DNA of 64,000 bases from a virus, in the IMG/VR virus record IMGVR_UViG_3300017917_001008, positions 1-64,000 of that record, one strand, 5' to 3'. Within the stretch, counting starts at the first letter, position 1. Every line of letters begins with the position of its first letter. A program made the position numbers and the translations under genes. Shown piece by piece: positions 11,890-47,756 of the stretch. Below the pieces are notes generated by a model. It saw nothing but the letters and a program-made list of their open reading frames with translations, did not search any database and was not told the DNA's origin.

Positions 11890-11893
11890 ACCG

Positions 11894-15200: not shown

Positions 15201-16823
15201 GAGAGTGAGATTAATTTGGCATTCCGTGATTGGGAAGATGATTTTTCAAGACGTCACTACGATCCGGAGCGTTACACAGATCTGAATATGATGTTCCGTT
15301 CTGATATCATCAAGAGCGGAAACTACTATAAGTATGACTACTCTTTAAGTGTAGCTAAATTATTTAACTCCCAGATCACCTGGGGTGAATTACTGCCCAG
15401 GGATTACGATCCACTGGTTGCAGCCAGCTGTTACACCTATCGTCCTAATAGGGTGATCTATTCTTTACAGCAGCAGGATAACTCTAAGGATGATAACTGG
15501 AGAGTATACCTGTCTAATAACTACCGTGACTTCCCTAATAAGGTGACAGTCATAAAGTCTATTAACGCCACCGGTGCATTGTTCATGATGAAAGACCGTA
15601 GCCCAAGATTATTCATGGGTGAGGAGCAGCTAAAGATGGACGGAACAGGGGCAGTGATCACTATAGGTGACGGTAACCTGTTTAACCAAAATGGTCAGCT
15701 TAGGGAGATTGTCAATGCAGACAGATCTTATGAATATGGATCTTGCCAGAGCAGATTTGGTCATTTAGGAAACGTCTATGGTGTTTTCTGGGTTAGCCAG
15801 GATCAGGGTAAGATTTTCCAATATGCCGGACAGATCAATGAGATCAGCCGGGATGGTATGAAATACTGGTTTGCTAAATACCTGCCAAGTGAACTCTTGA
15901 AGGTGTACCCGGATTATCCTCTATATGATAATCCTGTAGCCGGTGTTGGTGTACAGATGACCTATGATAATACCAATGAGATCATCTATGTAACCAAGAG
16001 AGACTTTAAGCCAAAGATGAAAGACCTGGCCTATGATAGTGGCGGGTTCTATAAGCTTATCAATGGTGTAAAGACTTATTATCCATTTACAGATAGCAAT
16101 GCTTGGGAGAATGCCAGCTGGACAATGAGCTATGATCCAAAGAGTAAAACCTGGATCAGTTTTCATGACTGGAAACCTACGTTCCTGATTCCTGGTAAGA
16201 ATCACTTCATGAGTGTAAACAACACTTCTATATGGAAGCATAACTCACGTTGTGATCTGTTCTGTAACTTCTATGGTGTAGATTATCCATTTGAGGTGGA
16301 GTTTATTTCCGCTACCGGTCAGCAGGTAACCTCTCTTAGAAACGTAGAGTATTTATTAGAGGCATATAGATATTATAATTCCTGTGCGGATAAGTTCCAT
16401 ATCCTGGATCAGAACTTTGACCAGGCTATGGTTTATAACTCAGAGCAGGTGTCTGGACTCCTGGAGCTAAACTTAAAGGATAAGTCCAATCCGCTCACCA
16501 TGTTAAACTTCCCGCAGGTAGGCCCGCAATCTATTAAGATACAGTTCTCTAAAGAAGAACAGAAGTATAGATTCAACCAGTTCTGGGATATTACTAAAGA
16601 CCGTGGTGAATTTAACGGTACATCTATACCAATGATGGTAACCAGTCCAAACGGATATGAATGGCAGATTAACCCTCAATACGTAAACTATCAGAAACCT
16701 CCATTGGAACGTAAGAAGTTCCGTCATAACGTAAACCGTGTGTTATTACGTAGACTGAAAAGTGGAGATGTCAAACTGTTATTTAAACTATCTAATCAGA
16801 AACTTCTTCAATCTCCTAGATAA
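12249..16823 (+). CDS. Muzzle-type tail protein (crAss-like), 1524 aa
   Basis: The protein starts with FTKGMAKDYNDTFIGEGLWS and continues with repeated beta-strand blocks such as WAIFTTNDVDSEIGIF and RPVYWVDGLNPDRFIDL. This pattern is typical of the large protein that closes the tail barrel in crAss-like phages. About residues 648-741 form a hydrophobic helical region (IMTIAAWAKYAVDLALWVNE) that could act as a plug or membrane-contacting element. It lies directly after ring proteins and before cargo genes, the crAss-like order. It overlaps both neighbours (8 bases upstream, TAATG downstream), implying translational coupling. Identification rests on size, order and sequence style, not on a database search. 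Confidence 0.7.
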   Translation: MAEQQQNPGAVSNSFTKGMAKDYNDTFIGEGLWSHARNAVNNSHDGQVGVIGNEPANLHCVTLPYTLIGAVLLTDDRWAIFTTNDVDSEIGIFDESQCTYTKVVNDKCLNFKRTHLISGISRRRYDCERPVYWVDGLNPDRFIDLDNPPFKYTEKIVDGCIQRTFTNELDCERLRLASYIKHPCLQLVKGKVAGSLLNGSYQVAIAYTINGSRVSDYIGLSEVQSVFTHENNNSSLELKITEIDKTFDTFDLVLLARVNEQTFARKIGEYSTAQGTIYIDRIDFESPTIPIQNIVFRSEPIEKSDAIYSVNDYALRVGTHSKFKFNYQKQANEIVAKWAAVQYPSNYYVKGGNNTGYLRDEQYPFFIRFVYNTGERSESYHIPGRPAVASELIDVAGGDAFETADGIQVKRWQVENTASVTSTTVSTLPDGGRVIASGQMGYWESTELYPPDKPNIWGNLCGKPIRHHKFPDVTIQGGSVVNHFNSDGTNIVILGVQFENITAPLDNNGNPIASIVGYEILRGSRQGQKSILAKGMFNNMREYDIPGNTTLKGLYQNYPYNDLSPDHYLSTRRRLSGSGVVNVDQSNSPKLTGFKRNIFSFHSPEVTFTNPFLNMDEVKIYEEVHGTSRGQFEIPFRHPRFKVASNIVDIITKVSSAMSAVAKVGKGVKIAATEDVPIELSYGPIGKPPAFPSAAGGNVSGTIMTIAAWAKYAVDLALWVNEVATVVALAKAIADVEREKLYEIFRILIPKRQYAAQFNSHGFYNQFRVSTAGNRRRKVVDAGYVSGSNIQYFNNKYQVNNIHRSSGLVIEVGADIADPTIVDNSRTTIGESGKGLYDPFDRTISSHYGGLKITFPSQYGQLDTIKQIPISYCTLPLTPDKTKKFSTGVLFGGDIYINRFTEKNSMFFFTNWLMGEPDEYEFDYTEYINVPYPRFWIHNTQYHSEFLSVPSQFRALDANDGLNLFSVKKGYFYLFNSGVRDFFVESEINLAFRDWEDDFSRRHYDPERYTDLNMMFRSDIIKSGNYYKYDYSLSVAKLFNSQITWGELLPRDYDPLVAASCYTYRPNRVIYSLQQQDNSKDDNWRVYLSNNYRDFPNKVTVIKSINATGALFMMKDRSPRLFMGEEQLKMDGTGAVITIGDGNLFNQNGQLREIVNADRSYEYGSCQSRFGHLGNVYGVFWVSQDQGKIFQYAGQINEISRDGMKYWFAKYLPSELLKVYPDYPLYDNPVAGVGVQMTYDNTNEIIYVTKRDFKPKMKDLAYDSGGFYKLINGVKTYYPFTDSNAWENASWTMSYDPKSKTWISFHDWKPTFLIPGKNHFMSVNNTSIWKHNSRCDLFCNFYGVDYPFEVEFISATGQQVTSLRNVEYLLEAYRYYNSCADKFHILDQNFDQAMVYNSEQVSGLLELNLKDKSNPLTMLNFPQVGPQSIKIQFSKEEQKYRFNQFWDITKDRGEFNGTSIPMMVTSPNGYEWQINPQYVNYQKPPLERKKFRHNVNRVLLRRLKSGDVKLLFKLSNQKLLQSPR

Positions 16824-30594: not shown

Positions 30595-33500
30595 TGGCTT
30601 GTAGATTAACAGAAGATCAAATATCAGCTTTATTTGGAGCTATTCACGGAGAAGTGATTGCTTCTAAGAACCGTGATGATAAGTTTAATGCGGCACAGGC
30701 TATTCGTGCTTTATATCAAAGGCTGCTGGATGCTGGAGCTGAGCAGGTAAATGCTATGGACTATGTACAACATATACCAAGCATGTTGCAGCTTAGCTAT
30801 GCTATGTTTGCAGACTCTAAGGCTCACATGAGAGCCAGTGGTGTGAACCTGTCTGAACTGGATCAGCTAGATGCAGACTTCACTGCAGATATTAAAAACG
30901 TGGCTAAGTTCCTGGGTGTAGACCAAGGCACAGCTGATGTTGTACAAGAGATCATTGAAGAGTCTAATCCCTCTACAGGGGTTATTCCCACAGATAACTA
31001 TACACAGATAGAAGAGGGTGATATTGCTAAGAAGAAACCCTACTTTGATTCAGAGATAAGCTTTGTAGCAGCTCCTGAAACAGCTCTTGCTGTATTCAAC
31101 CAGGAAGCCCAGGACTATAATGGTGTACAGGCTAAGCAGAACATACAAGACCCGGATCCTGTTAAGAAGGTGTATTACACCGTAGTGAGAAAGCTGAATG
31201 ACCTGATGACCGGCAGCAACCGCCAGACAGCAGATAAAGTGAAGCTTGGTGATGTAGAGGGTGTGTTCTTAAGACTAGTACCCGCTTCTATGATTGCCAT
31301 GGAAGATCTGCAGGAAGCTGACAGACTTTACTATTCTACAGATGATGATCCCCGTATTCCTTTTTCCAAGACCTCTAAAACAAAGATGGAACTTAGAGAG
31401 AAAGGAGATGATGTATACTTAGTCTATACAGACAAAGATGGTAACATACTTTATTTCAATGAAGAGGGTACACCTGTAGGAAAGGAAAATGGTGGTATGG
31501 TGGCTTACGGTAAGCTCCGTAGACCATACACTCCTAAGACTACCAATGAGGCTAAGGGTCAGGTGGCCGGTCGTAAAATGGTAGGAAGAGTACAGACTCC
31601 TCAAGACCTGGTGAGAAAAGGACTGGGTACACTGGAAGAAGTTACTAAAGAGCGTGATGAGGAAATAGAGATCCTTGAGAAGTCTCGTGAGTTTGTTTCC
31701 AAGAATCGTGACGAGGTGGTGTTATTCTCTGTAACCCCTGGTAGAAATGGTTATGTAACAGAAGACTTTTCCAAGCCTAACCCAATCAGTTCTATAGATC
31801 TCACAGATGGATTTAAACCTTATTTAAACAGCCAGGAAACTGGTGTATTGATTAAGGGCGGGGTGTATTTTAATGTCCCTGGCTACGAGTTCCCATTACT
31901 GATTCGTAGACCAAAGTTTGGCAATGTACCAAACCTGTCAGGCAACCTGGCAGATATTGTGTTTGACTCAGATCTTTCTAACAAAGAAAAGATAGATGTA
32001 TTAAGACAGTTTACCTACTCTGGAGACACTAAGATATTCCAGGGTAATGACGGCAAGCTTTATGTAAAGCAGATGGATCAAACTATGGAAGTCACTGCAG
32101 ATAATAAGCAGGCTTTCATTGATAATCTAAACGGCCAAACTGTTAACATCAATAAGGACCTGATGCATAGAACCTTTAACATGCCAGTGAACCTGGATGG
32201 TAAAGTGACCCTGCAGCAGGAGCGTTATAATAACTTCCTGGCTAATAACTTCTATACCTTCCTGGCTAAGAATGACCAGAATAAGATTGTCAGCCTGAAT
32301 GCGTATAACGTAATATTTCCTACAGAGGCAGCACAGGACAAGATCTTTGGTAAAGCAAAAGCAGCATCTAACGAGCAAACCTCTTCTTTAGAGCAAGCTA
32401 CACCCACTGATGTTACCAAGGATGAGTTTAAAGAATTACTAGACCGTACAGACTTCAGTTTAAAGAAGTCTACATTACTAAGCAGTAAGGCCACTGACGA
32501 ACAGATTGCCGCTGCAGAGAAATGGTATAACAGCTCTCCGCTTTCTAAAGTGGTACCATTCCAGGTGATGTTTAACATTGTAAACTCAAATGCATTAGCA
32601 GAGTTTACCACTGCAGGTATCACCCTGTGGAGCGGATCTAACTTTACAGATCTCTATCACGAGGGATGGCATGCTTTCACCCAGATGTTCCTGACCAAGG
32701 ATCAGAAGAAAGAGTTGTACAATGAAGCCCGTAAACTCACCGGTACCTTCACTACAGTGAGCGGTGCTAAGGTGAAGTTCAGTGCAGCTACAGATATGCA
32801 GCTGGAAGAATTCATGGCTGAAGACTTTAGAAAGTATGTACTGTCTGACCGTAAGAATATAATCAATGGCCGTCCGGTACGTAATACTATTTTCAGGAAG
32901 ATCTTTAATTTCCTGAAGGTTGTATTCAGTAGCTATTCGTTAAAAGATATTGCTGCTGATCGTACAGCAGTGGCTAATATCCAGAGCCTGTATGACCAGC
33001 TGTTCATTGGAGAGATCCATGACTACAAGCCTTCCTTAAGAAACGTACAGTTTGGAATATTAAACAAGGGCGTAGAGGCTTTGGATGTCAAATCTAAAGA
33101 CACGCTCACTTACCAGGATTCTATGACCCTGGTAGAAACTATTGACTCTTTAATAGCCTCCACTATGGTAGGTTATGGTAGGAGTGTAGCTGGTATATTT
33201 ACTAACCCAGAACTCCTGGGCCCATTATACAAGAGAGTTAACACCAAGCTTGCTGAGCTTAGAGAAACCCTGGTTGCAGATCCAGAAAAAGCTAACAGCG
33301 TAAAGCTGATAGACTTTGCCCTGACTAACTGGGGTGATTTTAGTAAGGTGGCTAAGGGTGAAGAATCCACTGGTGTACTGGCATTCCATAAAAAGCGTAG
33401 TGCATATTTTACGTTTGATGATAAGATGGCCGAGATGGACGCTTATGATCAGAGTGTAAATGAAGATGCTGAAGAAGTTAAAGATGCAGATAATAATCTG

Positions 33501-36500
33501 GCTAAGTCTGAACAGCAGCTTCGTGAAGAGTTTGGATCCAACCCATTTGAACGTAAAGGAAACGAGCACTCTGTAAGAGAGCTTGCTTCTAACGAGGTGG
33601 TGTATTTGATTAAGAGCTTACCGCAAGTAGATAAAAACGGAAAGGTGGTAACCAATGCATTGGGTGTTCCTAAGCTGGTTGACTTCAACCGCACCTGGGG
33701 TATTGTGATTAACACCGTAGCCGGTTCTAATACTACTTCCCAGATGTATGCCAAGCTTCTGGATGCAGCTACACGTTTTCCAGAGCTTAGAGCTTTGGTA
33801 GAACGCCTGGGTAATCCATTAGACCATACAGAAACTAAGGACTGGCCGTTCATGAAGATGTGGATTTCATTCTTTAGAGACTTCTCTGTGTATAGAATTC
33901 CTATCAAAGAAGGTCGTTTAGTAGACGGGCCTGGTGGGTTTAAGTTTGAGTTTACAGAAGTGGATCCTCAGTTTAAACAAGTGCACCGTGCTTTCCAGGC
34001 TCAGTTTGAATCACTGGGTAGCAGTCCTTATATTACAAAGACTCCAACCGGTAATAAGCTAAACATAGAGAAGATTTTAAAGGACTTCCCTTACAGTTCC
34101 ATCTTTGCTAAAGACAAGGTGATCATTGATGAAGATAAAGCCATGGAGTTTCTAAAAGCCATTGGTTTCTATCTGACAGATAACAGAGAGATCCGTAAAG
34201 CCATCCGGGATAATTATGAAGCTGTGGCTTATATACACGGTCTTCCATACATGAAGAATCCAGGCGGATTGTTAAGACTGGCTGATAAGAAGGTGGATGT
34301 GTTCAATCCTATTGACGCCCTGTGGAAGATTGGTAGTGAAAACACCAACGTACAGAAGATCCTCACTATAGAAGCTAAGCATAGCGGTAAGTTCAGTAAT
34401 AACGCTGTTACTAACGTTAACGGTGATATTGTTTATGACCTGTCATTAAACAACACAATCACCAGGCTGTTGAATGATCTTAATGATCCTTCTAAGGATT
34501 ACACTATGACCCAGGAGCAGCACCTGCAGCATCTGAACTTCCAGAGAAATCCTTTTGCTAAGTATTCCATCTGGATGAAGTCAATGTTCAGTATTCCTAC
34601 AGGAAAGCTGGTTGACTTGTCTAATGAGAATAAAAGAATATCTCAGGATGTAAAATTTGGTGGTGGTTTTGTCTCTATGAACCTGGTAAACCTTGATGGT
34701 GTTAAGAGTGTACTGGCAAGAGATAATGCCGGTCAGTTGGTACAAAGCGGTATTAAAACAACCAGCCTGGATCCTGCATCTAAGTTCATCTTTGATTTGC
34801 ACACTATGCTACTCACCGGTACTATGGAGCTGCCAAGGCATGCTTCTAAGTCCAGTGCATATGGTGTAAGTGTATCCAAGGTGGACACTTCATATAACGA
34901 GAATGCTAAGCATCTATACATCAGCCCCGGTCATTTTGGTAAAAACGGTAAGGGTACAGAATACTCTGTAGAACTTCTATTGCCAAAGATTGCAGCTGAG
35001 ATGGAGCGTATAGCAATGGTTAACCAGGGATTGGTTCCAAGTATTCCGGGATTCAACGAGCGTGGTAAAGATTTCACCATGTTTGATGACATCTTAAGTG
35101 ATACTACTAAAGAAGAGCTTAAGAGATTAGCAGATACAGAGGATTCCCTGTCTGTGATTCAGGATCCTGCCATTAAGCAGAAGATCACTGCAGATGTCAG
35201 GAACTATCTCAATCAGCTCTTTAAAGAAAACATGGAGCTGTATAAGTCTTTAGACTTTATGTCTGATGACTTGTTATTAAACTCCAGGAGCGGTAAGACT
35301 GATATCAAAGCCTTGATTGCTAAGGATACACTAGAGGTGGTAGGTGAAGATAGAACAGACTACCTGAAAGAGGTGGCTGTTAAAGCTTTCACCGTTAACT
35401 CTCTGATTCATAACATGGAAGCTATTTCCGTTTTGTACGGAGACCTTGCTATGTATAACCACTTAAAAGAAGAATACCATAAGCGTAATGCTTCTATAGG
35501 TTCTACAGGTAGGATCTTTGCCAGTGACGGAGCTACCAATAAGTTCATTGAGAACCTGGGTAGAGGATATGCTAGATCCATTGGAGCCAGGGATAAAGGG
35601 TTTGATGGTACACTAGACACTGCTATCTTTAAAGATAACGAGGTGCCTTCTGTTTATTATGATGAGTACCTGGAGGCTCTTACTAAGAAGTACGGAGCTG
35701 ATAAGGCAAAGAAGATCCTGAAGCCTTATAAGAAGATGAATGAGGGTGACGCCCAGGGTTGGATTACATTTGATAGCTATCGTATCTTATCTATCCTGGA
35801 AGGTGCCTGGTCAGAAAAGCAGAATGAGCTTTACAATAAGATTATTAGAAATGAGCAGGTAGATCCTGCAGAGATCACCGAGTTCTTCCCAACTAAGAAG
35901 TTCCAGTATGCCGGTCCTCTAAAGACAGAGAAGCTTCACATACAGGCTTTCCATAAGTTCTCTTTGGTACCACTTATTCCAAGCTTGGTGAAGGGCACTA
36001 ACATGCAGACCCTTCATGACAACCTGGTAAAGCAGGGTAAAGACTACGCTCTGTTTGAGTCAGGATCTAAGCTGGCTACCATTACGGCTAACGGTAAACC
36101 AGATTCTCTGTATGAGAATGATGATTACAACACCCGTGTAGTTAAACCATGGAACGAGGGTGACCCTGCCTATACATCTAACGTTGTCTTTATACAATAC
36201 TTAAAAGACCAGGTGGACATCCAATCTACTTGGAAAAACAAAACTGTCTTCTCTACACAGCTTCGTAAGCTGATCATCAATGACGTATTCAAACAAGGTT
36301 TGGGTATTGGAGAGTTTGACGGACTGGTTAAAGAGTTTGAAGGTTTATTAGATGACCTGCAGGAATATAAAAAGAAAGAGCTTTTACAACAAGCCGGCTG
36401 GACAGAGAATGAGTCTGGAGAATTATCCGGAAGCACTCGTGAACTGCTGGAGTTTGTCATGAGAGAGATGGAGCGTCTTGAGCTTCCTGAACATGACGTA

Positions 36501-39500
36501 GACTTTGTAAGAGATAGTCTTAATGATGGTACGTTCACAGACTTAAGCTTCTCACTCAATGCTGAGAAGATTGAAAAGATGCTGAACAACATTGTTGTAA
36601 AGCGTCTGGTAAAACAAAAGATGAACGGTGAGCAGCTGGTGCAGTTGTCTGGTGCCGGTTTTGAATCTGCCGGTTCACGTTTTACCAATGCAACAGAAGA
36701 GGAAATTAAGAAGTACCGTGGTACTAATAACTTACCTACCTATCGTCCTGGTGCAGGAAAAGATGGTAAGACCACTGCCATGAAGGTGAAGATAGCTATA
36801 AAAGGAGACTATTACAAGCTTCTTAATCTTAAGCACAATGACGGTAAGAAGATCGGTACCCGTGAGCGTCTGAACGAGATGATCAAAGATGACAAGTGGT
36901 TAGACAAAGGGGACAACCGTAAGATGATCACTATGGTGGGTGTGCGTATTCCTGTACAAGGTTTAAACTCTATGGAGTTTATGGAGATCTATGAGTTCCT
37001 GCCTGAAGAAGCCGGATCTGTGATCATCCCGCCTGCAGAGATCGTAGCCAAGTCTGGTTCTGACTTTGATATTGATAAGCTCACTATATTCCAACCTCAT
37101 ATTGGTATTAGGATTAACCGTAATACTACCAAGTCTAAGCTGAAAGAACTGGCTAAGAAGTATCCTGACCTGGACTTCAGCTTGGATAATGTAAACACCA
37201 TCCTGGATGCATCTGAAAATGACTTCAGTGTGTACATGCCTACCGAGCAGGAGATGAAGGTGTATAAAGTGCTGGTACAGGAAGCATCTGATGAATTACC
37301 CACTTACATAAAAGGTAAGGGTATGAAGTCTACAGAGAACCAGATCATTGAGAAGATCCGTACCATCCTGGAGCACCCAGATAACTTTGATGCCCTTATA
37401 CGTCCTAACGACACTGACCTGGTAAAAGGTGTGGCTGATGAACTGGCTGAACTAAACATCCAGGGGTATGATCCGTTTGCTGTAAAGACCGGTAATACCC
37501 GTACTAGTATCAAGGGTGGTAAAGAAAGCAAGGTGATTTCTCCAACCCGTGCTTTAGAACCTAGGTATAATCTTTACAAGCATGAGTCTAACAACATTGG
37601 TAAGAAGACTCTTGGTATCGGTGCTGTAGACAACGCCTACTCTTCTATATTCAAGAGAGTAGGGGCTCGTCTTGAAAAGAACTACACCCACTACAAGAAA
37701 GAAGACGGAAGGTTTGTATATGATAAGAGTGGAAACATAGTTAAGCAGATCCGTCCTATAAACATTAGGATGAAGCATAATACCATTAAAGAGAACGGCA
37801 CTGAATACATTTCTCTTTCTGATATTGAAACCGTAACCATGGATAAGGTGAGTGACCTTATAGGCCAGCTCATGAATGGTTGGGTGGATATTGAGAAAGA
37901 CGCCTGGATCTTTAACATCAACGGAAACTCCATTGCTGGCCCGGTGTTATTGTTCTTACTGGAAACCGGTGTAGACTTCAAAACAGCAGCTTATTTCGTA
38001 TCCCAGCCTTTAGTGGTGCAGTATGTGAAAGAGATGTACATGAGTGACTCTCCGTTCTATCCTGCAGTTAATCCTGGAGCTGAAACTGAAAAAGGCCTGA
38101 AGCGTCATAAGATACGCCAGAAGTTTTTTGAAGATCTGAAAATAGCTCCGTTAAAACCTACTAAGTTTTTTGGTCCGGTGTTATCTAATGATATTCTATA
38201 CAAGGCTATCAATGATTATAACGCTAATAAGGAATACACAGTAGAGAGTCTGCGTGAGGTGATTAAGAACAAGGACGTAAAGAGTAAAGATGCCATTGCG
38301 GGTCTGTTACACTTTATGGAACTGGAAGACCTGGGTAAACAGCTCACTAACATCAAGCTCACTGTAAACGTAGACACGGCTCCATCTAAGAGTCTGTTTG
38401 CTGCCAACCAGCGTATAGATAAGATTGAGGATCTGGAGTATGTTGACTCTGTACCTAAATCTGTTATTAATAAGATCTTATATGATTCTCCTATCCGCTC
38501 CTTCCTGGTGCAGAAGTTCCAGCTGGGTATATTAAAACCGCTGATGAAACTAAGAGGAGATAGCCAGATCAATAACTTCTTATTGGACGTCATGAAGGGT
38601 GCAAACTACCCTTCTGCGTTTAACACACCAGAGAAGTTTGTAGCTGCTTTCCATAATGACCTACCGCTGTACTTGTTACAGAACCATCTTAAGGGATTGG
38701 ATATCAACTCCTTAACTGAGTATAAAGGAATGGCCGTTAAAGAAGCTATGCCTGTAAAGAATGTACAGTTACGCCAGGGTGCTTTTGTAAAAGACGGTGT
38801 GATGTACATTGACCGTGACCAGATTGCAGAAGACTTTAACACTAAGGCTTTTGCAGGAGAGGGTTATGAAAAGCAGGGACTGGCTAAGTTGGATCCTCAG
38901 ACATTCAACATGGGAGATAACTCTCAGAACTTACAGGAGTATGTTCACTTCGTATTAGAACGTGAATACTTAAGATCTGTAATCCCTGTAGGTGATGTAA
39001 CCCGTGAAGTGTATGAGCGTAAGATAGCAACACGTGCTTTAGAGCGTACGTTTAACTTCTTCCATATGCTGAAAGCTCCTGGAGAAAGTATTGCAGATAA
39101 ATTCCTGGAGATCAAAACAAAATATCCTAAGCTTTCTGAGGACTTCCTTATCATGACGGAGCTGGGGTATAACAATGATGCAGCCAAGACTGATGATGAT
39201 GGTAACGTAAAAGAGGTGAAGAACAAAAAGATGCGTACCCTAAAGCTGAAGAGTCAGCGTTTGGATACGGACTTTGCTAACGTGCTTCATGAAAACCTGT
39301 TACGTCTGGCAGATCCTATGACTATAAAGGTGGAAGATCCTAATGCAAACAGGGAGATCAGCCAGTTCTTTACACGCATGATCGTAGCAGAGTATCTCCG
39401 TGCTGGTATTACCAGGAGCGGTGAGAACCTGGCTAAGATATTACCGGTGAATACACTGCGTCAACTGATGGCAGAACCATTACAGGAGTTTTCTAAGAAG

Positions 39501-40175
39501 AGTAATAAGAACCAGGTGTTGAATCAGTATTACACCCAGTTTAAGAAAAAGTGGGATAATGAAAACTCAAGCTCTCGTTTGAAGTTCCGTAACTATCTCA
39601 CTACGTTTGATATCAAGGGAACCAAGTCTGTTTCTCTGAATAATCCTTCAGAGATTATAGACGGAGCTGAGCTGAATAAAAATGCCCAGGGTCTATATGT
39701 CTATCCAAAAATAGCTGGGTCTGCCAGTGCAAAAAATATTGTTAAGAATCATAATAACATTATATTTGCCTACCCCAATATAAGTGATAGTAAGGCTATT
39801 AAGACCACGTTTGATGCTGCTAGTAATTCGGTGAGTTTCCCAATCACTACAGACGGTAAGACTCCACTTTCAGACGAGAACTTTGAAGAGAATGTTAGAT
39901 TGATAGATGATGCCATCACTTCTATAGAAACACAGTTTGAGCTTGGTAACGAGGTGGCTTTCCCTGAAGAAGGTTTCAACATGCTAGATGGGAAAGATCT
40001 ATTGCTTAATGCTCCCCGCACTAAGAGTTACATGGCCCAGGAGCTGTACAAACGCCTTGCTTACATCATGCCAGGTATGCACAATGAGAAAGCTATACGC
40101 TCTCAGGTTCAGGCAAACCAGGAAATTACAGATGAGATGGTAGAGGAGTTCATGAAAAAATGCTTTGGAAACTAA
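30594..40175 (+). CDS. Virion RNA polymerase of crAss-like type with HExxH domain (3193 aa)
   Basis: Residues 2157-2161 are DFDID in AKSGSDFDIDKLTIFQ. This corresponds to the DxDxD catalytic motif of the single-chain, two-barrel RNA polymerases of crAss-like phages (studied in Cellulophaga phage phi14:2), where the Asp residues hold catalytic magnesium. Upstream, VKQKMNGEQLVQLSGAGF (about 2005-2022) fits the first barrel with its basic residue. In the N-terminal third HEGWH (689-693) in DLYHEGWHAFTQMF, with EEFMAEDFRKYV about 45 residues later, is a zincin-like metalloprotease signature. In the studied relative the polymerase is injected with the DNA and transcribes early genes; the same is inferred here. 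It is unusually long because of added N- and C-terminal regions. Confidence 0.88.
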   Translation: MACRLTEDQISALFGAIHGEVIASKNRDDKFNAAQAIRALYQRLLDAGAEQVNAMDYVQHIPSMLQLSYAMFADSKAHMRASGVNLSELDQLDADFTADIKNVAKFLGVDQGTADVVQEIIEESNPSTGVIPTDNYTQIEEGDIAKKKPYFDSEISFVAAPETALAVFNQEAQDYNGVQAKQNIQDPDPVKKVYYTVVRKLNDLMTGSNRQTADKVKLGDVEGVFLRLVPASMIAMEDLQEADRLYYSTDDDPRIPFSKTSKTKMELREKGDDVYLVYTDKDGNILYFNEEGTPVGKENGGMVAYGKLRRPYTPKTTNEAKGQVAGRKMVGRVQTPQDLVRKGLGTLEEVTKERDEEIEILEKSREFVSKNRDEVVLFSVTPGRNGYVTEDFSKPNPISSIDLTDGFKPYLNSQETGVLIKGGVYFNVPGYEFPLLIRRPKFGNVPNLSGNLADIVFDSDLSNKEKIDVLRQFTYSGDTKIFQGNDGKLYVKQMDQTMEVTADNKQAFIDNLNGQTVNINKDLMHRTFNMPVNLDGKVTLQQERYNNFLANNFYTFLAKNDQNKIVSLNAYNVIFPTEAAQDKIFGKAKAASNEQTSSLEQATPTDVTKDEFKELLDRTDFSLKKSTLLSSKATDEQIAAAEKWYNSSPLSKVVPFQVMFNIVNSNALAEFTTAGITLWSGSNFTDLYHEGWHAFTQMFLTKDQKKELYNEARKLTGTFTTVSGAKVKFSAATDMQLEEFMAEDFRKYVLSDRKNIINGRPVRNTIFRKIFNFLKVVFSSYSLKDIAADRTAVANIQSLYDQLFIGEIHDYKPSLRNVQFGILNKGVEALDVKSKDTLTYQDSMTLVETIDSLIASTMVGYGRSVAGIFTNPELLGPLYKRVNTKLAELRETLVADPEKANSVKLIDFALTNWGDFSKVAKGEESTGVLAFHKKRSAYFTFDDKMAEMDAYDQSVNEDAEEVKDADNNLAKSEQQLREEFGSNPFERKGNEHSVRELASNEVVYLIKSLPQVDKNGKVVTNALGVPKLVDFNRTWGIVINTVAGSNTTSQMYAKLLDAATRFPELRALVERLGNPLDHTETKDWPFMKMWISFFRDFSVYRIPIKEGRLVDGPGGFKFEFTEVDPQFKQVHRAFQAQFESLGSSPYITKTPTGNKLNIEKILKDFPYSSIFAKDKVIIDEDKAMEFLKAIGFYLTDNREIRKAIRDNYEAVAYIHGLPYMKNPGGLLRLADKKVDVFNPIDALWKIGSENTNVQKILTIEAKHSGKFSNNAVTNVNGDIVYDLSLNNTITRLLNDLNDPSKDYTMTQEQHLQHLNFQRNPFAKYSIWMKSMFSIPTGKLVDLSNENKRISQDVKFGGGFVSMNLVNLDGVKSVLARDNAGQLVQSGIKTTSLDPASKFIFDLHTMLLTGTMELPRHASKSSAYGVSVSKVDTSYNENAKHLYISPGHFGKNGKGTEYSVELLLPKIAAEMERIAMVNQGLVPSIPGFNERGKDFTMFDDILSDTTKEELKRLADTEDSLSVIQDPAIKQKITADVRNYLNQLFKENMELYKSLDFMSDDLLLNSRSGKTDIKALIAKDTLEVVGEDRTDYLKEVAVKAFTVNSLIHNMEAISVLYGDLAMYNHLKEEYHKRNASIGSTGRIFASDGATNKFIENLGRGYARSIGARDKGFDGTLDTAIFKDNEVPSVYYDEYLEALTKKYGADKAKKILKPYKKMNEGDAQGWITFDSYRILSILEGAWSEKQNELYNKIIRNEQVDPAEITEFFPTKKFQYAGPLKTEKLHIQAFHKFSLVPLIPSLVKGTNMQTLHDNLVKQGKDYALFESGSKLATITANGKPDSLYENDDYNTRVVKPWNEGDPAYTSNVVFIQYLKDQVDIQSTWKNKTVFSTQLRKLIINDVFKQGLGIGEFDGLVKEFEGLLDDLQEYKKKELLQQAGWTENESGELSGSTRELLEFVMREMERLELPEHDVDFVRDSLNDGTFTDLSFSLNAEKIEKMLNNIVVKRLVKQKMNGEQLVQLSGAGFESAGSRFTNATEEEIKKYRGTNNLPTYRPGAGKDGKTTAMKVKIAIKGDYYKLLNLKHNDGKKIGTRERLNEMIKDDKWLDKGDNRKMITMVGVRIPVQGLNSMEFMEIYEFLPEEAGSVIIPPAEIVAKSGSDFDIDKLTIFQPHIGIRINRNTTKSKLKELAKKYPDLDFSLDNVNTILDASENDFSVYMPTEQEMKVYKVLVQEASDELPTYIKGKGMKSTENQIIEKIRTILEHPDNFDALIRPNDTDLVKGVADELAELNIQGYDPFAVKTGNTRTSIKGGKESKVISPTRALEPRYNLYKHESNNIGKKTLGIGAVDNAYSSIFKRVGARLEKNYTHYKKEDGRFVYDKSGNIVKQIRPINIRMKHNTIKENGTEYISLSDIETVTMDKVSDLIGQLMNGWVDIEKDAWIFNINGNSIAGPVLLFLLETGVDFKTAAYFVSQPLVVQYVKEMYMSDSPFYPAVNPGAETEKGLKRHKIRQKFFEDLKIAPLKPTKFFGPVLSNDILYKAINDYNANKEYTVESLREVIKNKDVKSKDAIAGLLHFMELEDLGKQLTNIKLTVNVDTAPSKSLFAANQRIDKIEDLEYVDSVPKSVINKILYDSPIRSFLVQKFQLGILKPLMKLRGDSQINNFLLDVMKGANYPSAFNTPEKFVAAFHNDLPLYLLQNHLKGLDINSLTEYKGMAVKEAMPVKNVQLRQGAFVKDGVMYIDRDQIAEDFNTKAFAGEGYEKQGLAKLDPQTFNMGDNSQNLQEYVHFVLEREYLRSVIPVGDVTREVYERKIATRALERTFNFFHMLKAPGESIADKFLEIKTKYPKLSEDFLIMTELGYNNDAAKTDDDGNVKEVKNKKMRTLKLKSQRLDTDFANVLHENLLRLADPMTIKVEDPNANREISQFFTRMIVAEYLRAGITRSGENLAKILPVNTLRQLMAEPLQEFSKKSNKNQVLNQYYTQFKKKWDNENSSSRLKFRNYLTTFDIKGTKSVSLNNPSEIIDGAELNKNAQGLYVYPKIAGSASAKNIVKNHNNIIFAYPNISDSKAIKTTFDAASNSVSFPITTDGKTPLSDENFEENVRLIDDAITSIETQFELGNEVAFPEEGFNMLDGKDLLLNAPRTKSYMAQELYKRLAYIMPGMHNEKAIRSQVQANQEITDEMVEEFMKKCFGN

Positions 40176-40190
40176 TTATAATCATACCCT

Positions 40191-43100
40191 ATGTTAGCGT
40201 GCCCTAATAAAAACACTAAAGATTGGCAAGACCTTGTTGACCAGTTAGGAGAGAAGGAAGCTTTCAGAGCCTACCTCACTATTGGTGACGGAACTATTCC
40301 TACAGCCCAGCAATACGTACAGTATAGCAGGCAGGCTAGTGAGGAAAAAGGAGAGATTGGTGTTAACAAGCAACAGCTGTTGATGCTTCTTGGCCCCACC
40401 ATGTATAACAAGCCGCTTGCACAGGTGGCTGTAAAAGAGTTGTTACAGAATTCATTTGATGCTATTAAAGCCATGCACAACATGCGTGGTAAAACTGTAA
40501 CTACTACACCTGCTGTAGACAAGTCTGCTCTGATCCGTGAGTTTAACCAGGTGCAGAGTCAGATTAAAGCTGAATCAGCTAAGGTTACTTTTGACAGTGA
40601 AGGAGATGTGCTTACAGGTGATCCTTTTGTAGTGAGCAAGCTGGTAGACAGACGTGCTGCTTTACAGGAGCAGATTGCCAACTTTGATCAGAACCAGAAA
40701 GCTAACGCTACTACTAAGACTGGTTACGAAGGGCCGCTGGGTAATATTAAGTTTACCATTAACTATGACGACCGTACCATCTCTATACAGGATGATGGTA
40801 TTGGTATGACGCCTGATATTGTCAAGAAGGCGTTTCTCTCTATTGGTGGTACCAATAAAGAAGGACTATCTACAGGTGAGCGTTCCGGTGGATTTGGTCT
40901 GGCCAAAGTGCAGTTCTTATTGGGTAGTGAGTACGTAGAAGTGTCTACAGTGAGAGATGGTACAAGAACCTCTATTAAGGCTACCAACCTAGAGCTTTAT
41001 AATGATGACTTTACTATCCGTACAGAGCCTACCAACGAACCTAACGGTACGTTTGTAAAGGTGAAGATACCAGAAACCTACACTACACCAGAAGGAACTG
41101 TTCGTACCATTGACTTCCCTGGATCTTGGTCATCTGATCCAATAGAGCGTTTTGATATTTTAAACCAGCCCCTGATTGGTAATCTAAATGTCTCTGCAGA
41201 TGTAGTGAAGAACGGTAGGACAACTAATAAGGTGTTGCCAATAGGTAAGAACATCTCTAAGGAATTATTACCTCCATTACTTTCTAATGTAAAGTTTGCC
41301 TGGGGTGAAGCTGAAGTGTACGTAGGAGAGAACAAAACAGAGTCTCCTAGACATAGAATACTTTCATCTGGATTATACCAGTTTAGTAAACGTATAGAGA
41401 TTGCAAACTGGGAACCCATTCCTTATGATATTGTAATCAATATTAAACCGTCTGTAAGTTCTACAGCGGAGCAGTATCCATTTAACAACCAGCGTGAGGA
41501 TTTCAAGAATACGGTTTCTAAAGATGTAGATAGCCTATACGCCTATTTAAGAAAGTACGCCAGGGGAGAAGCTGAGAAAGATTTAGTGGATGTATTCCAG
41601 AATATCAAGTCTTTACCTAAAACTGACCCTAACAAGATACTCACTCCTGAAGAGAGAGCTAAACTCTATGAAGAAGTAGAAAACACCATAGCTGAATCTA
41701 AACGCTTACGTGAGCAGTATGGCAGTCAGCTTAACCAGCCACGTCAGACTACAAGACTGGTGATCAGCCAGGGATCTGTAACGGATGAAGAGACTGGTGC
41801 ACAAGTGGAAGTGGAGAAAGAGAAAAGCTATGAGTCTACATTTAAGGCTGATAAAGAGATTGAGTTAGGTAAGTCTGTAGACACATCTGCATTTAAAGAG
41901 AACGAACCCCAGTTTCATAATAACACTAACGTAGACTATTTGTCTATGCCCGGAGCTATAGAGTTCTTTAGTGACTTTGGTACTGTAGTGTATGAGATGG
42001 TAAGGTTTGCCGGTAGGGAGTTAGGCCACCGTTACAGCAAGCTTACAGGACAAGAAGGTAAGTTTTTTGCAGGTGTATCCATTGATAAAACCTACGGTGG
42101 CGTGCATGTCCGTAAAGTGATAGATGCCATCTTCATTAACCCGCTTTCTTTTGACATCTCCAGTGTAGAAGAAGCTGCAGGTTTGATGACCCACATCATT
42201 ATACATGAGATTAACCACACTACAGAGTCAGGTGAAGGAGCCAACTTTACCACTGCTCTGGCTAAGCTATATGGTAAGATATATGAGACCGGTAAGTATG
42301 GCTACTTTGAGGGGTTGGTTAGATCTGTATATCGTAAACATTTTGATACCTTTGTAAAACTAAAATCAGAATATGACAAGTCCACTACAAGAAATCTTGC
42401 AGCTTCGTTTGAAGGAAACGAACTCAATAGAGGCAGTGAAGGGAACCTTCAAGGGAATGCTTCAGCTGTACGAGCAGGAGAACAGACCTCTGGCAGAGAT
42501 CAACGAGATCAGGAAGATCTTAGCGGATCTAGACAAGAAGACCGCACAGGAGACGTTATAATCAGTCAGCTTAACAATCCACAGACAAGTGTACCTACAC
42601 TTCCTCCTGTGGAAGCCCAAAGAGCTGAGATAGGTCAAAACATAGTGCGTGCCATTGCAGACACGCTTGCTGCTAACTTAGGTGTTTCCTACACCTTAGT
42701 CACTCCTGAAGAAGCAGCTCAGCTAACAGCTAATTCCCGTAATCCATGGAAAGGTGAGAAAGCTTTCTTCTACAATGGCCAGGTGTATTTCCTGGACGGA
42801 GGCTTTACAACAGACTCTGTACTACACGAGTTTTCACATCCACTGGTAGCAGCTATTGCTGTACAGAATCCTACGTTATTTAAGAATCTTTATGAGCAGC
42901 TGGAATCCACACCAGAAGGTAAGGCTGTAATAGCTGAAGTGGAAGCTTTGTATCCGGAGTTTAAACCTACAGATACCAAGTTCCGTGAAGAGGCTTTAGT
43001 AAGAGCTATGACCGCTAAAGCTATCAACCAGATCAAGGGACAGAAACCTTCTACAGGGTTTAATGATGTGATCAACAAGATGTTGTTTGCCATTAAGCAA

Positions 43101-46100
43101 ATGTTCCGTAAGCTGTTTGGTTCTTCTATAAAGATTGAAAAACTTTCTGAGAATACTTCTTTAGAGCAGCTTGCTGAGATGCTCCGTGGTGAGAAGTTTG
43201 ATATTTCTACAGAGGTGGTTACCCAGGAAGACTACGCCCAGTATGTTCGTGACATTTCTAACTTTATGTCTGAGCTGGATGCTGTAGAATATTCTGGTAT
43301 TTCTACATCTGTAAAGCGTTTTTATGATGTAGTGACCAACCACATCAGACGTATTAAAGATAACAAGAACTACAGTGAGGCCCGTAAGTTCCTAGTAGAT
43401 GAGACCGGTCGTGGTCAGTTACAGGAACTGAAGTCAACCCTTTCTAACTCTGAGATAGACGAGAAGCTTAGTGAGATCTTTGACGAGGTGACCCTGCAGG
43501 CTAAAACCATGCAGAGTTTTGTACACTCAACGCTCCGTTTACAGAAACTGAGTGATAGCATTTTAAAGCATGTACGTGAGCTGGCTAAGCAGGGAGACTC
43601 TAAAGAGGTGATCGGTAACATCTTCTACTATGACCTTCTTGTACGTAACTGGAATAAGTATATTAACGAAACCATTGATCGTCTCTCAGATGCCGGCCTA
43701 AGTCCAAACACAGAGTTTGGCAGAGTGATTGCCGGTATACAGAATACAGTGGCTCAGACTGAAAGGATGATAGATAAGATCTATGCAGACAAGGTGGATG
43801 ACGTCATCTTTGATACACTGCAACCTCTTGCAGAAAGCATTGATAACTACTTTGGTGACTGGATAGCTGGTCTTGAAAAGAAGAACGCTTCTGCACAGAA
43901 GATAGCTGATGTTCAGAAGAAGTGGGATGAAATGAAACTTACTAAGCAGAAGATCAAAGATCTGATCAGTGGTAAGCTGGGTGATACAAATATGTACTCT
44001 GCCTTCCTGGAAGCATACACCAACTCTCCAGATCCTGTAGTGGGTGGTTTTGCCATGTTCTTGAAGAACGCCTACAATGATGTAGACGCCCAGGCTCAGC
44101 GTAACATGAATGATTTTGTACGTGACCTGGAGCCATTGTTAATAGCTGCCGGTTACAGCCGTATGGATTATGCCGGATTAATGGAAAAGCTTGTCACTGT
44201 AGAGAAAGTTCCATTTATAGATGAGAAAGGAAACTTTGCCACTAAAGAGGTGTTTTCTTTTAAGGACAAGTTTAATGATTATAATACAGAGGCTTCCCAG
44301 TTAAGGTTTGAATATGACCAGGCTGTATCTGAAGGAGACCAGGCCCTGGCAGACCAGAAGCTCCGTGACCTGCGTAAACTACGTAGGGATTATTTCCACC
44401 AGGAATATGTACCTGAATACTACGAGCGTGAGAAGATCTATGATTCAGAAATGGGTCGTGAAGCTTACAGACGTAAGCAGATGCTTCTTAATGAGATTAA
44501 AGAACTTGACGCCCAGAGTTATGATGATGACGCCCTGGATTACATTGCTGATCAGAAGAAGATCCTGTGGAGAGAATACTCTCAGCTGGCTTCTTTAACA
44601 GATCTGAATGGTGATCCTAAGACAGGTCGTGAACTGGAACTGGCTAAGATTGAAAAGGAATACCGCAAGGCTTCCCGTGAGTTCTTTGAATGGGTTCCTA
44701 TACAGGGTTTATTTGAGTCTAACTTAAGACGTTTTGAACAGAGTCTGGTGGATGAGGGTATTGATATCACCTCAGATGAGTTTAAAGAAAAACGTAATAA
44801 GTGGATTAAGAACAATACCGTTATTGCTTACACCCCAGAATTCTACGAGGAGCGTAACCAGGTGCTGGAAGATCTTAGAGATCTGATGAGCGGCCTGAGT
44901 GAAGACGTACGTAAATCTATTGACTCTACAGAGGAAATGGAAGCTATGCTTGATATAGCCACCGGCTTCCGTGACCAGGATGGTCAGGTGATCGGTACAG
45001 ATATTTCCGAGAAGAGTAAGAACAAGGTGAGAGAATACCAGAAAGCCATACTTGCCAAGCGTGATTCTATGGCTGGCTTTAGTGGTCTTACCAGGGATGA
45101 AATGGATGAGCTCACTGAGATCTTCCAGAAGATGACGGCTAAGATAAAGATCACACAGGCAGAGCGTGACCGTGTAGACGAACTGATGGAGAAGAAAAAC
45201 TCCATGGGTGTAGATAAGTTTACCAAGGCCGAGATGCAATCTCTATATGCTCAGCTGGCAGAACTTCAGAGTAAGGAAGCCACTGATTACTATGTAGACA
45301 TTGTAAATAACTATCTGTCTAAGATAGGTGAGCCGTTGATTGATAACGACACAGCTATTAATCTTTTAGATCCTGTAATGTATGTGGAGCTGTTTAAGAA
45401 GTCTCCAGAGTTTGAGAAATGGTTTAAAGAAAACCATATACAGAAAGAGGTGTTTGACAGAGCATCCGGGGATACTAAAATAGTTTACGAGCGTCTGTTC
45501 ATCTGGAACCGCACCCGTCCTAACAACCCTGATCACTACGAGAAGATTAAACTCTCTGATGGTGAAGAGATTTTAGGTAAGCCTAATCTGTCTTATTTCT
45601 ACCGTTCTGTAAAGAAAGAGTATCGTACCAAGCGTGAGGTGGGTAAGACCATAGACAACCGTGGTAACTGGTTACCTAAGTCTTTAGAAGACGGAGCTGT
45701 GGATGATAAATACTACAACCAGGATTATGAAAAACTCCGTAGAGAAGACCCTGCAGCGTTTGCTGTACTGGAGAAGATGAAGGAATATCACCTGAAGTTC
45801 CAGGAAGGTTTTGCCCGTGAGAGTAAGTTATACCTGCAGATCCCACGCTACCGTAAACCTTCTTTAGAATCTCTTAAAGATGGTAAGTTCAAGAACAAGT
45901 GGCATGAGTGGACCACTCGTGTAAAACAGTTCTTTGCTAAAGCTCCGGATGATGTACAGGATGGATTAAACTTCAAGCCTGAACAGCTCATCTATACAGA
46001 CATGTTTGACGAGGAGATCAATAAGGTTCCTATCACCGGTCTCTATGCATTAGATACCGATCAGGTGAGTATGAACATTGCAGATAACATGTTGCGTTAT

Positions 46101-47756
46101 ATGCATTCAGGTTTAAAACAAAAGAAGCTGATTGAGCTTAACCCTATGGCCCAGGCTCTGAAGAAAGCGGTGGGCAGTCCGGATAGTGCCATCAAGGACA
46201 TGACTAAGATTAACAAGTGGCAGTATGTAAACACCGGTGTTAAATCCTACCTGTCTAAGAAAGGAGAGAACGTACGAGCTAAGGCTATTGCCAATCTATA
46301 CGAGCGGGAGTTTGAAGGAAAGACCCAAGCAGGTTGGTTAGCCAATGCTGCTGGTGTACAGAAATTTGTACATGGATTATTAAAGCTTTCCAGCTTTGGA
46401 TTATTCTCCTTTAACGTACTTCCTTCTGCCATTAAGAACAGGCAGTCAGCTATTATCCAGTTGCAGATTGAAGCCAGTGGTGGTAGATTCCTAAACTGGA
46501 ACAGCTACCTGCGTGGTAAACCACGTGCTGTGTCTATGCTTGGTGCATACTCAGCTCAGCTGTATAAAACTGGTAACCGCTCTTTAGATGTGCAGCTCCT
46601 GCAGATCTTTGATCCTACCCAGGAGATATTAAACACTACGTTTGGAGACGGATCCGCCACCGATATGGGTGGTCAGTTTGGTAGATCTGTAGCCAGTGAT
46701 GCTGCAAGTCTTGGATTCTTTATGGCACCACGTAAGTGGCTGGAAATTGAGTCTGCAATAGAACTCTTTAGTGGTATGATGCACCACGTTAAAGTGGAGC
46801 AGATCATCAATGGAGAGAAGAATGAGATCCCTTATATAAACGCCTTTGAAATAGTTAACGGCCAGATAGAACTTAAAGCCGGTATTGATAAAGAGTGGGC
46901 ACCTGGCGGTAAGAAGTTCAATGAGTTTAAGAACAGGGTACATGAACTGGGTAACCGTCTGAACGGTACCTATGCTAAGATGGACCAGCCTGAGGCTCAG
47001 CGTTATTTTGTATTCAGAATAGCTGCATTCTTAAAACGCTTCTTTACATCCATGTTGATGAACCGTGTAGGAGCAACCCGTCCTAGTGCAGCTCTGGGTA
47101 CAGTGAGCACCGGATACTACCGTTCTGTTTTACAGGTGGCCAGGGACTTCCTCAGATATGGTATCAAAAACTACCAGTGGTTAAGTGAAGAACAGAAGAT
47201 CAACCTTCTAAAGTTTGCATCAGATATGGCTCACCAGATGGCGTTGTTATTCATCCTGAACGTAATGTTTGGATATGACGAGTCTGATGAAGACCGTTTT
47301 GAAAAGATGAGAAAACGCAGTGGAGCCTTGGGTGATGATGACTTCAACCTTTCCGGTTGGTTAACAAACCACGGACTGGTAGCTACACTGGGTACACTAA
47401 CCGAGGTGGAAACTTTTGGATCCTGGAGTCCTGTAGTGGTGGGAGCGGATGGTGATCTGGATATGGCAATCCTGGGTCGTAACTGGAAGCAGTTGAAGAA
47501 CACTTCTAAGATGATCATGGATCCTAGAACACTGTACGGAACTACTATAGAGAAGCAACTTAACTTCTTAAACCACTTAAGCCAGTATTTGGATGAGGAT
47601 CCAGCAGGATTTTACAAGAGAGATGTTGGACCGTATTGGTTCCAGAAGGAGGAGTCTCCTAAGTTTATCAATGATGCGGCATCCATCTTAGGCTTTACCG
47701 GATCACAGATAGATCCAGTAAAAGCCTTAAAAGGGATGGAGTTTGGTCGTAAGTAA
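40191..47756 (+). CDS. Giant virion protein: GHKL ATPase plus two HExxH domains (2521 aa)
   Basis: Residues 70-330 show the Bergerat (GHKL) ATP-binding fold: N box VKELLQNSFDAIKA with E83, N87, D90; G1 box DDGIGM (201-206); G2 box GGFGLAK (233-239). HEINH (672-676) in THIIIHEINHTTESGEG and HEFSH (879-883) in VLHEFSHPLVAAIA with EEALVRAM downstream are two separate metalloprotease-like motifs. They are joined by a low-complexity linker (about 728-790). The remaining 1500 residues are mostly helical and charged, ending in a region with amphipathic segments (LLKLSSFGLFSFNVLPSAIK). It is the last gene of the late block, downstream of the virion RNA polymerase. Ejection into the host is inferred; substrates are unknown. 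Confidence 0.82.
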   Translation: MLACPNKNTKDWQDLVDQLGEKEAFRAYLTIGDGTIPTAQQYVQYSRQASEEKGEIGVNKQQLLMLLGPTMYNKPLAQVAVKELLQNSFDAIKAMHNMRGKTVTTTPAVDKSALIREFNQVQSQIKAESAKVTFDSEGDVLTGDPFVVSKLVDRRAALQEQIANFDQNQKANATTKTGYEGPLGNIKFTINYDDRTISIQDDGIGMTPDIVKKAFLSIGGTNKEGLSTGERSGGFGLAKVQFLLGSEYVEVSTVRDGTRTSIKATNLELYNDDFTIRTEPTNEPNGTFVKVKIPETYTTPEGTVRTIDFPGSWSSDPIERFDILNQPLIGNLNVSADVVKNGRTTNKVLPIGKNISKELLPPLLSNVKFAWGEAEVYVGENKTESPRHRILSSGLYQFSKRIEIANWEPIPYDIVINIKPSVSSTAEQYPFNNQREDFKNTVSKDVDSLYAYLRKYARGEAEKDLVDVFQNIKSLPKTDPNKILTPEERAKLYEEVENTIAESKRLREQYGSQLNQPRQTTRLVISQGSVTDEETGAQVEVEKEKSYESTFKADKEIELGKSVDTSAFKENEPQFHNNTNVDYLSMPGAIEFFSDFGTVVYEMVRFAGRELGHRYSKLTGQEGKFFAGVSIDKTYGGVHVRKVIDAIFINPLSFDISSVEEAAGLMTHIIIHEINHTTESGEGANFTTALAKLYGKIYETGKYGYFEGLVRSVYRKHFDTFVKLKSEYDKSTTRNLAASFEGNELNRGSEGNLQGNASAVRAGEQTSGRDQRDQEDLSGSRQEDRTGDVIISQLNNPQTSVPTLPPVEAQRAEIGQNIVRAIADTLAANLGVSYTLVTPEEAAQLTANSRNPWKGEKAFFYNGQVYFLDGGFTTDSVLHEFSHPLVAAIAVQNPTLFKNLYEQLESTPEGKAVIAEVEALYPEFKPTDTKFREEALVRAMTAKAINQIKGQKPSTGFNDVINKMLFAIKQMFRKLFGSSIKIEKLSENTSLEQLAEMLRGEKFDISTEVVTQEDYAQYVRDISNFMSELDAVEYSGISTSVKRFYDVVTNHIRRIKDNKNYSEARKFLVDETGRGQLQELKSTLSNSEIDEKLSEIFDEVTLQAKTMQSFVHSTLRLQKLSDSILKHVRELAKQGDSKEVIGNIFYYDLLVRNWNKYINETIDRLSDAGLSPNTEFGRVIAGIQNTVAQTERMIDKIYADKVDDVIFDTLQPLAESIDNYFGDWIAGLEKKNASAQKIADVQKKWDEMKLTKQKIKDLISGKLGDTNMYSAFLEAYTNSPDPVVGGFAMFLKNAYNDVDAQAQRNMNDFVRDLEPLLIAAGYSRMDYAGLMEKLVTVEKVPFIDEKGNFATKEVFSFKDKFNDYNTEASQLRFEYDQAVSEGDQALADQKLRDLRKLRRDYFHQEYVPEYYEREKIYDSEMGREAYRRKQMLLNEIKELDAQSYDDDALDYIADQKKILWREYSQLASLTDLNGDPKTGRELELAKIEKEYRKASREFFEWVPIQGLFESNLRRFEQSLVDEGIDITSDEFKEKRNKWIKNNTVIAYTPEFYEERNQVLEDLRDLMSGLSEDVRKSIDSTEEMEAMLDIATGFRDQDGQVIGTDISEKSKNKVREYQKAILAKRDSMAGFSGLTRDEMDELTEIFQKMTAKIKITQAERDRVDELMEKKNSMGVDKFTKAEMQSLYAQLAELQSKEATDYYVDIVNNYLSKIGEPLIDNDTAINLLDPVMYVELFKKSPEFEKWFKENHIQKEVFDRASGDTKIVYERLFIWNRTRPNNPDHYEKIKLSDGEEILGKPNLSYFYRSVKKEYRTKREVGKTIDNRGNWLPKSLEDGAVDDKYYNQDYEKLRREDPAAFAVLEKMKEYHLKFQEGFARESKLYLQIPRYRKPSLESLKDGKFKNKWHEWTTRVKQFFAKAPDDVQDGLNFKPEQLIYTDMFDEEINKVPITGLYALDTDQVSMNIADNMLRYMHSGLKQKKLIELNPMAQALKKAVGSPDSAIKDMTKINKWQYVNTGVKSYLSKKGENVRAKAIANLYEREFEGKTQAGWLANAAGVQKFVHGLLKLSSFGLFSFNVLPSAIKNRQSAIIQLQIEASGGRFLNWNSYLRGKPRAVSMLGAYSAQLYKTGNRSLDVQLLQIFDPTQEILNTTFGDGSATDMGGQFGRSVASDAASLGFFMAPRKWLEIESAIELFSGMMHHVKVEQIINGEKNEIPYINAFEIVNGQIELKAGIDKEWAPGGKKFNEFKNRVHELGNRLNGTYAKMDQPEAQRYFVFRIAAFLKRFFTSMLMNRVGATRPSAALGTVSTGYYRSVLQVARDFLRYGIKNYQWLSEEQKINLLKFASDMAHQMALLFILNVMFGYDESDEDRFEKMRKRSGALGDDDFNLSGWLTNHGLVATLGTLTEVETFGSWSPVVVGADGDLDMAILGRNWKQLKNTSKMIMDPRTLYGTTIEKQLNFLNHLSQYLDEDPAGFYKRDVGPYWFQKEESPKFINDAASILGFTGSQIDPVKALKGMEFGRK
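42373..42561 (+). CDS. Nested ORF in another frame inside the linker of the giant ATPase gene
   Basis: A 62-codon frame starting at ATG 42373 and ending TAA lies within the 2521-aa gene. It encodes an ordinary-looking helical protein (SPLQEILQLRLKETNSIEAV, LAEINEIRKILADLDKK). The host gene's own frame here gives a low-complexity string (GSEGNLQGNASAVRAGEQTS). Codons in the nested frame (AAG, GAG, CTG, ATC) resemble the rest of the genome better than the main frame does. It may be a real overlapping gene or a relic of a shifted frame; function unknown. Confidence 0.35.
   Translation: MTSPLQEILQLRLKETNSIEAVKGTFKGMLQLYEQENRPLAEINEIRKILADLDKKTAQETL

Follow-up and report, generated by a model that had tools for sequence, protein, structure and literature searches.

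The stretch analysed here (the window) covers the first 64,000 nucleotides of a virus record, IMG/VR IMGVR_UViG_3300017917_001008, which is 75,210 bases long overall. On its plus strand, to which all window coordinates below refer, lies a giant open reading frame (ORF) of 2,521 amino acids (40191..47756, ATG start), which has homologs and encodes a predicted virion cargo protein of the polyvalent type. We found that this protein carries a GHKL ATPase, a transducer domain and a likely zincin metalloprotease as one exchangeable cassette, with a short N-terminal leader on one side of it and a conserved backbone on the other. The ORF comes directly after a homolog of virion RNA polymerase (30594..40175) that has a DFDID motif and is related to crAss001 gp50 (tblastn E about 2e-17). 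An earlier note, made from the DNA letters alone, had placed the giant gene after such a polymerase gene and had listed in its product E83/N87/D90, DDGIGM, GGFGLAK, HEINH at residue 672 and HEFSH at residue 879; the setting and every one of these residues were borne out.

The ATPase domain spans residues 56–293 (40356..41069). Pfam HATPase_c_3 matched the window protein with E = 2.3e-6, over the Pfam cut-off, and a profile of 31 homologs run against PDB sequences matched HtpG (4e-9) and TRAP1 (2e-8). The nearest NCBIfam models were HSP90 family protein (9e-8, though well short of that family's cut-off), the BbrUII/HgiDII restriction enzymes and HtpG. Consistent with the GHKL fold read from the motifs in the earlier note, an AlphaFold model of residues 51–745 (predicted local distance difference test (pLDDT) 77.7, predicted template modelling score 0.57) matched the N-terminal and middle domains of Hsp90 and the 43K fragments of GyrB/ParE in Foldseek, with a best E of 1.6e-11 and 613 PDB matches at E ≤ 1e-3. 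E83 and N87 of the N-box (40437-40451), D201 and G205 of DDGIGM (residues 201–206, 40791-40808) and G233, G234 and G236 of GGFGLAK (residues 233–239, 40887-40907) are invariant in all 31 distinct homologs, and T287 of a further motif, the G3 motif GT (residues 286–287, 41046-41051), is kept in 29 of them. The transducer or middle domain that follows (residues 294–462, 41070..41576), assigned from Foldseek and conservation, holds an Hsp90-like catalytic loop, YPFNNQRE, in which R435 and E436 (41493-41498; YPFxNxRE) are likewise invariant in 31/31; judged by this motif, R435 would be the equivalent of the Hsp90 catalytic arginine R380. On the strength of the Pfam, NCBIfam, PDB-profile and fold matches, the window ATPase is a full GHKL–transducer unit that includes both G3 and an Hsp90-like loop. 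An insert of about 75 residues between the N-box and DxGxG (window residues about 104–180, 40500-40730) is confined to the window and one homologous locus, L002.

A linker modelled as a helix followed by beta elements (41577..41900) joins the ATPase to the HEINH domain, hereafter zincin-1 (residues 571–735, 41901..42395). H672, E673 and H676 of its motif (residues 672–676, 42204-42218) are invariant in 31/31 distinct homologs, and its model (pLDDT 77.5, core mostly 75–97) shows zincin topology, with a helix and strands, then the HExxH helix and more helices. In Foldseek, the nine best-ranked PDB structures were zincins without exception (Wss1, selecase, LTA4 hydrolase and ERAP2), and the leading matches as a whole were nearly all zincins, but the E values of the nine were 0.3–1.6, none of them individually significant; Wss1 ranked first (E = 0.32). 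The domain is likely to be a zincin as judged from the model, as the earlier note had proposed from the motif, although its best fold match is not significant. Most copies read HExxHxxxxxHGxxHN, suggesting a histidine as third metal ligand, whereas the window clade has GEGANF at that place, where E682 is the candidate and may serve instead.

To survey the pairing, we scanned 2.9 million viral contigs for the HEINH domain with the patterns HNNTN[VF]D and [IA]EFFSDF, which are blind to the ATPase. Because scans of this kind are capped at the 80 best loci and rely on short peptide patterns, frequencies are rough. In each of the 39 loci recovered, the HEINH domain is immediately preceded in its ORF by a GHKL domain (39/39, with E values from 1e-59 downwards). 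They represent 31 distinct copies, with no variation at the catalytic residues of either domain, and the ratio of nonsynonymous to synonymous substitution rates (dN/dS) is about 0.1 for the GHKL domain and for zincin-1, with dS near saturation. The cassette is larger than first described: it consists of GHKL, transducer and zincin-1, and the pairing is obligate. The 31 distinct homologs also rule out a private oddity of the window phage.

The second motif of the earlier note, HEFSH, belongs to a different part of the protein. Its domain, zincin-2 (residues 813–1010, 42627..43220), keeps H879, E880, H883, P884 and E934 in 51/51 homologs (HEFSHP at 42825-42842, with HEFSH at residues 879–883; E934 at 42990-42992), which gives an HExxH and a downstream glutamate ligand, and DUF4932 matches its members with a best E of 1.2e-5. 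No significant match was found for zincin-2 against PDB. By its sequence signature it is a conventional zincin, a conserved backbone peptidase ahead of a core of ~1640 amino acids. When the C-terminal core and the RNA polymerase were used as queries, 60 distinct homologs were recovered. In the 59 that could be measured, the distance from the zincin motif HE[FYLM]xH to the C terminus is nearly constant (1615–1815 amino acids, standard deviation 53), which defines the conserved core (residues 1011–2521, 43221..47753), whereas the N-terminal side varies from 118 to 1483 amino acids (standard deviation 330). Because of this constancy on one side and variability on the other, together with the 51/51 residues, HEFSH is part of the backbone, and the stretch upstream of it is a variable payload slot in which GHKL plus HEINH is one cassette. 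Consistent with this, a close relative, L004 (core 77% identical), shares the N-terminal leader (residues 1–37, 40191..40301; cassette boundary near GDGTIPT) but lacks residues about 38–798, and thus the cassette. Among 61 crAss-like backbones, a GHKL domain occurs in three, namely the window, L002 and L003. Ten other payload slots contained no domain that exceeded the Pfam cut-off. By eye, the slots of L025, L026, L028, L085, L087 and L088 resemble ART, nucleotidyltransferase or GNAT domains; with no Pfam domain above the cut-off in those scanned, we do not claim such payloads.

These results divide the earlier picture of one GHKL ATPase joined to two HExxH domains. HEINH does pair with GHKL and is mobile with it, whereas HEFSH stays with the backbone, so we reject a single machine with two cooperating proteases.

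Divergence between backbones points to exchange of the cassette. The window and L003 are 70–72% identical in the cassette and 32% in the core, with a dN of 0.247 for GHKL and 0.764 for the core. By contrast, the window and L002 have similar values (GHKL 0.195, core 0.159), which makes movement of the cassette between backbones a simpler explanation than far stronger constraint in the L003 lineage alone. L126 and L153, a natural swap pair from a different phage group, are 98% identical in DNA across 8.4 kb and 91–93% upstream, but about 880 amino acids with the cassette in L126 (4528-11829) are replaced in L153 (3815-9601) by about 370 amino acids with another, conventional zincin (HEILH). L126 alone has the cassette among the 80 related backbones listed. 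Of the complete cassette-free related backbones, 39/51 have an HExxH, mostly about 200 amino acids ahead of the core (0.4% after shuffling), and 12/51 have none. The cassette is accessory, mobile and dispensable, and is traded among otherwise different phages.

The carriers, all metagenomic contigs, encode giant proteins of 2000–4200 amino acids from otherwise unrelated phages. Several have Pfam polyvalent domains: L115 (InPase, LPD5, LPD1, MutS_I and RadC), L140 and L117 (LPD38), L149 (LPD39), L131 (LPD39, below the Pfam cut-off) and L134 (GNAT, with ART-PolyVal below the cut-off); Pfam found no LPD-type domain in the window protein. Most neighbours in the other carriers had no match in PHROGs; the exceptions were a portal gene after the giant ORF in L114 and an exonuclease in L135. 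The cassette's HExxH is the only one in 16 of the 31 carriers, and 15, including the window, have another. In L009 the cassette is a separate ORF upstream of a shorter core homolog, with a run of N splitting the ORF in the assembly; the shorter, split version of the giant protein directly downstream of this stand-alone cassette ORF (L009:2279-6111) lacks zincin-2. No full-length module was found in INPHARED phages or PLSDB plasmids. Matches on genome contigs were limited to two, L009 (a phage-like contig) and L010 (a contig end), and 274 genomes from the class of the metagenome-assembled genome holding L009 had no further copy, which lends no support to a recently captured bacterial gene.

Comparison with known systems places the protein near two of them. 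Iyer et al. (2017, PMC5512222) proposed that phage-borne polyvalent proteins, which are giant and multidomain and include zincins, act as injected effectors. The window protein resembles them in its architecture, zincin and exchangeable domains, and several carriers match LPD38, LPD39, LPD5, LPD1 or ART-PolyVal, but the GHKL–zincin pair is not described there and the window protein itself has no LPD match. The main text of that paper does not mention GHKL, Hsp90, HATPase or rIIA, and none of the papers covered by a literature search brought together GHKL, metalloprotease and phage. Polyvalent proteins with zincins are already known, whereas we could find no description of the GHKL–zincin unit. 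The second system is crAss001, in whose virions gp47, gp49 and gp50 were detected by mass spectrometry (PMC10172136). Part of the window core (residues about 1906–2427, 45906..47471) is homologous to gp49 (hhalign probability 98.7, E = 2.5e-16), and the gp49 gene adjoins the virion RNA polymerase gene, as in the window. gp49 differs in being 1349 amino acids long, with neither HExxH nor GHKL. Because gp49 is a virion protein, we infer packaging and ejection for the window protein as well; the earlier proposal of a virion protein that enters the cell is in this way made likely as to cargo, by homology to gp49.

Individual domains also have familiar relatives. Hsp90/HtpG shares the GHKL domain, the middle domain and the catalytic-loop arginine, but the window module is fused to a zincin. 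A full Hsp90 was rejected: NCBIfam PRK14083 scored 31 bits against a cut-off of 455, the fold match covers the N-terminal and middle domains, and an Hsp90 C-terminal domain was not recognised. Wss1-type zincin proteases, the best-ranked although non-significant fold match of zincin-1, are of another sequence family and have no GHKL partner. An unnamed viral protein, UniProt A0A516L4L2, matched the whole module in Foldseek (E = 6.7e-35, TM 0.62). Phage rIIA is alike in its GHKL plus middle region, weakly in sequence (best E = 4e-4) but clearly in fold (E about 1e-8). It is, to our knowledge, a separate, non-virion early protein that is paired with rIIB and has no protease. T4 rII is required for growth on lambda lysogens (PMC9391042), and the likeness to rIIA, taken with this role, makes counter-defence a reasonable target class by analogy.

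We consider the best reading, with a probability of roughly one half, to be that the cassette enters the cell as an effector, a metalloprotease gated by ATP and directed at host proteins. The payload slot between leader and backbone (zincin-2 and the gp49-like core) holds an exchangeable cassette, in this phage an Hsp90/rIIA-type ATPase and transducer with a likely zincin protease tethered through a linker. Once the protein had been ejected and had reached the ATP of the host, the ATPase would clamp down on a target as a dimer and either present it to the tethered zincin or switch the zincin on. The zincin would then cut the target, a host protein, with those of defence or takeover the likeliest kind. 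In this form the ATP-driven clamp proposed in the earlier note, coupled to proteolysis, is still the preferred functional idea. The carriers with LPD38, LPD39, LPD5/LPD1, MutS_I, RadC, GNAT and ART-PolyVal, which by these domains appear to be polyvalent proteins and hence proposed injected effectors, are consistent with this. The GHKL–transducer fold, the pairing in all 39 loci, the invariance of both active sites, the low dN/dS, the homology to gp49, the horizontal exchange and the resemblance to rIIA also speak for it. More tentatively, the GHKL–zincin unit may represent a new class of ATP-gated metalloprotease, in which an Hsp90/gyrase-type dimeric clamp captures substrate and feeds it to a covalently tethered zincin, and which many unrelated phages would carry into cells as an interchangeable effector. 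Several observations weigh against the effector reading. None of the structural matches of zincin-1 is significant taken singly, and the identity of the third metal ligand is doubtful in the window clade (E682, as against histidine in most copies); the module is known from sequence and predicted structure, in carriers that are all uncultured. Moreover, the conventional zincin in the cassette's place in L153 and the 16 of 31 carriers in which the cassette zincin is the sole HExxH fit self-processing as well.

Self-processing, the main rival, would make the GHKL–zincin an ATP-timed peptidase that releases active parts from its own giant polypeptide, either ahead of packaging or once inside the cell. 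Zincin processing has been proposed for polyvalent proteins (PMC5512222), and the frequent HExxH ahead of the core in cassette-free related backbones points the same way. It is the replacement of the cassette by a HEILH zincin in near-identical phages that leads us to keep this explanation in consideration, with a probability of roughly one quarter. We nevertheless regard it as less likely than the effector reading, given that 15/31 carriers, the window among them, have another HExxH and 12/51 related backbones have none, that the cassette is accessory, traded between unrelated backbones and a separate ORF in L009, and that a full ATPase clamp is not obviously needed for self-cleavage.

The closeness of the Hsp90 fold could alternatively reflect a chaperone that refolds the giant cargo after unfolded passage through the tail, with the zincin clearing failed products. 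Crassvirus cargo is thought to be partly unfolded during this passage (PMC10172136), but 58/61 crAss-like backbones, and likewise the close relative L004, manage without the cassette, and the Hsp90 C-terminal dimerisation domain was not recognised; we consider this improbable. A similarly low weight falls on a DNA clamp protease, in which a GHKL–transducer dimer would encircle DNA like GyrB/MutL while a Wss1-like zincin strips proteins off the incoming genome. The best fold matches include GyrB/ParE 43K fragments, and Wss1 heads the zincin-1 list, but that match is not significant and Hsp90-type chains outrank GyrB. Finally, the dispensability and patchy distribution of the cassette could indicate a degenerate passenger with no catalytic function, which is very improbable with all catalytic residues kept in 31/31 copies and a dN/dS of about 0.1.

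As far as we know, nearly all energy-dependent proteolysis is driven by AAA+ motors. If the effector reading is true, a conserved, mobile pairing of GHKL clamp and zincin would be a different way of coupling ATP to protein cleavage, in a cassette that is probably packaged by the phage to act within minutes of the start of infection. L126 and L153 offer nearly identical phages with and without it. Because the cargo of the crAss-like backbone occupies a definable slot, predicted phage effectors could be found by reading this slot in other genomes.

Elsewhere in the window, a homolog of the muzzle/tail stabilisation protein (12249..16823) places the phage among the crAss-like phages. Its matches include Cellulophaga and Flavobacterium phages along with others, and several of the matched phages are crAss-like; among known phages the lowest E was for Leptolyngbya phage Lbo-JY46 (3e-106), hinting that crAss-like virions occur in cyanophages. 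Just upstream of this gene, a 136-amino-acid ORF with HEIFH (11846-12256) is a possible small metalloprotease. The RNA polymerase ORF has a zincin-like motif of its own ahead of the catalytic core, HEGWH at about 32658-32672 (HE[GA]WH), and D[LI]YHE[GA]W was one of two patterns that recovered 217 related loci. An ORF at 70-930 resembles, by eye, an intein/Hint domain (ending ...VANGIVTHNS) within a probable virion protein.
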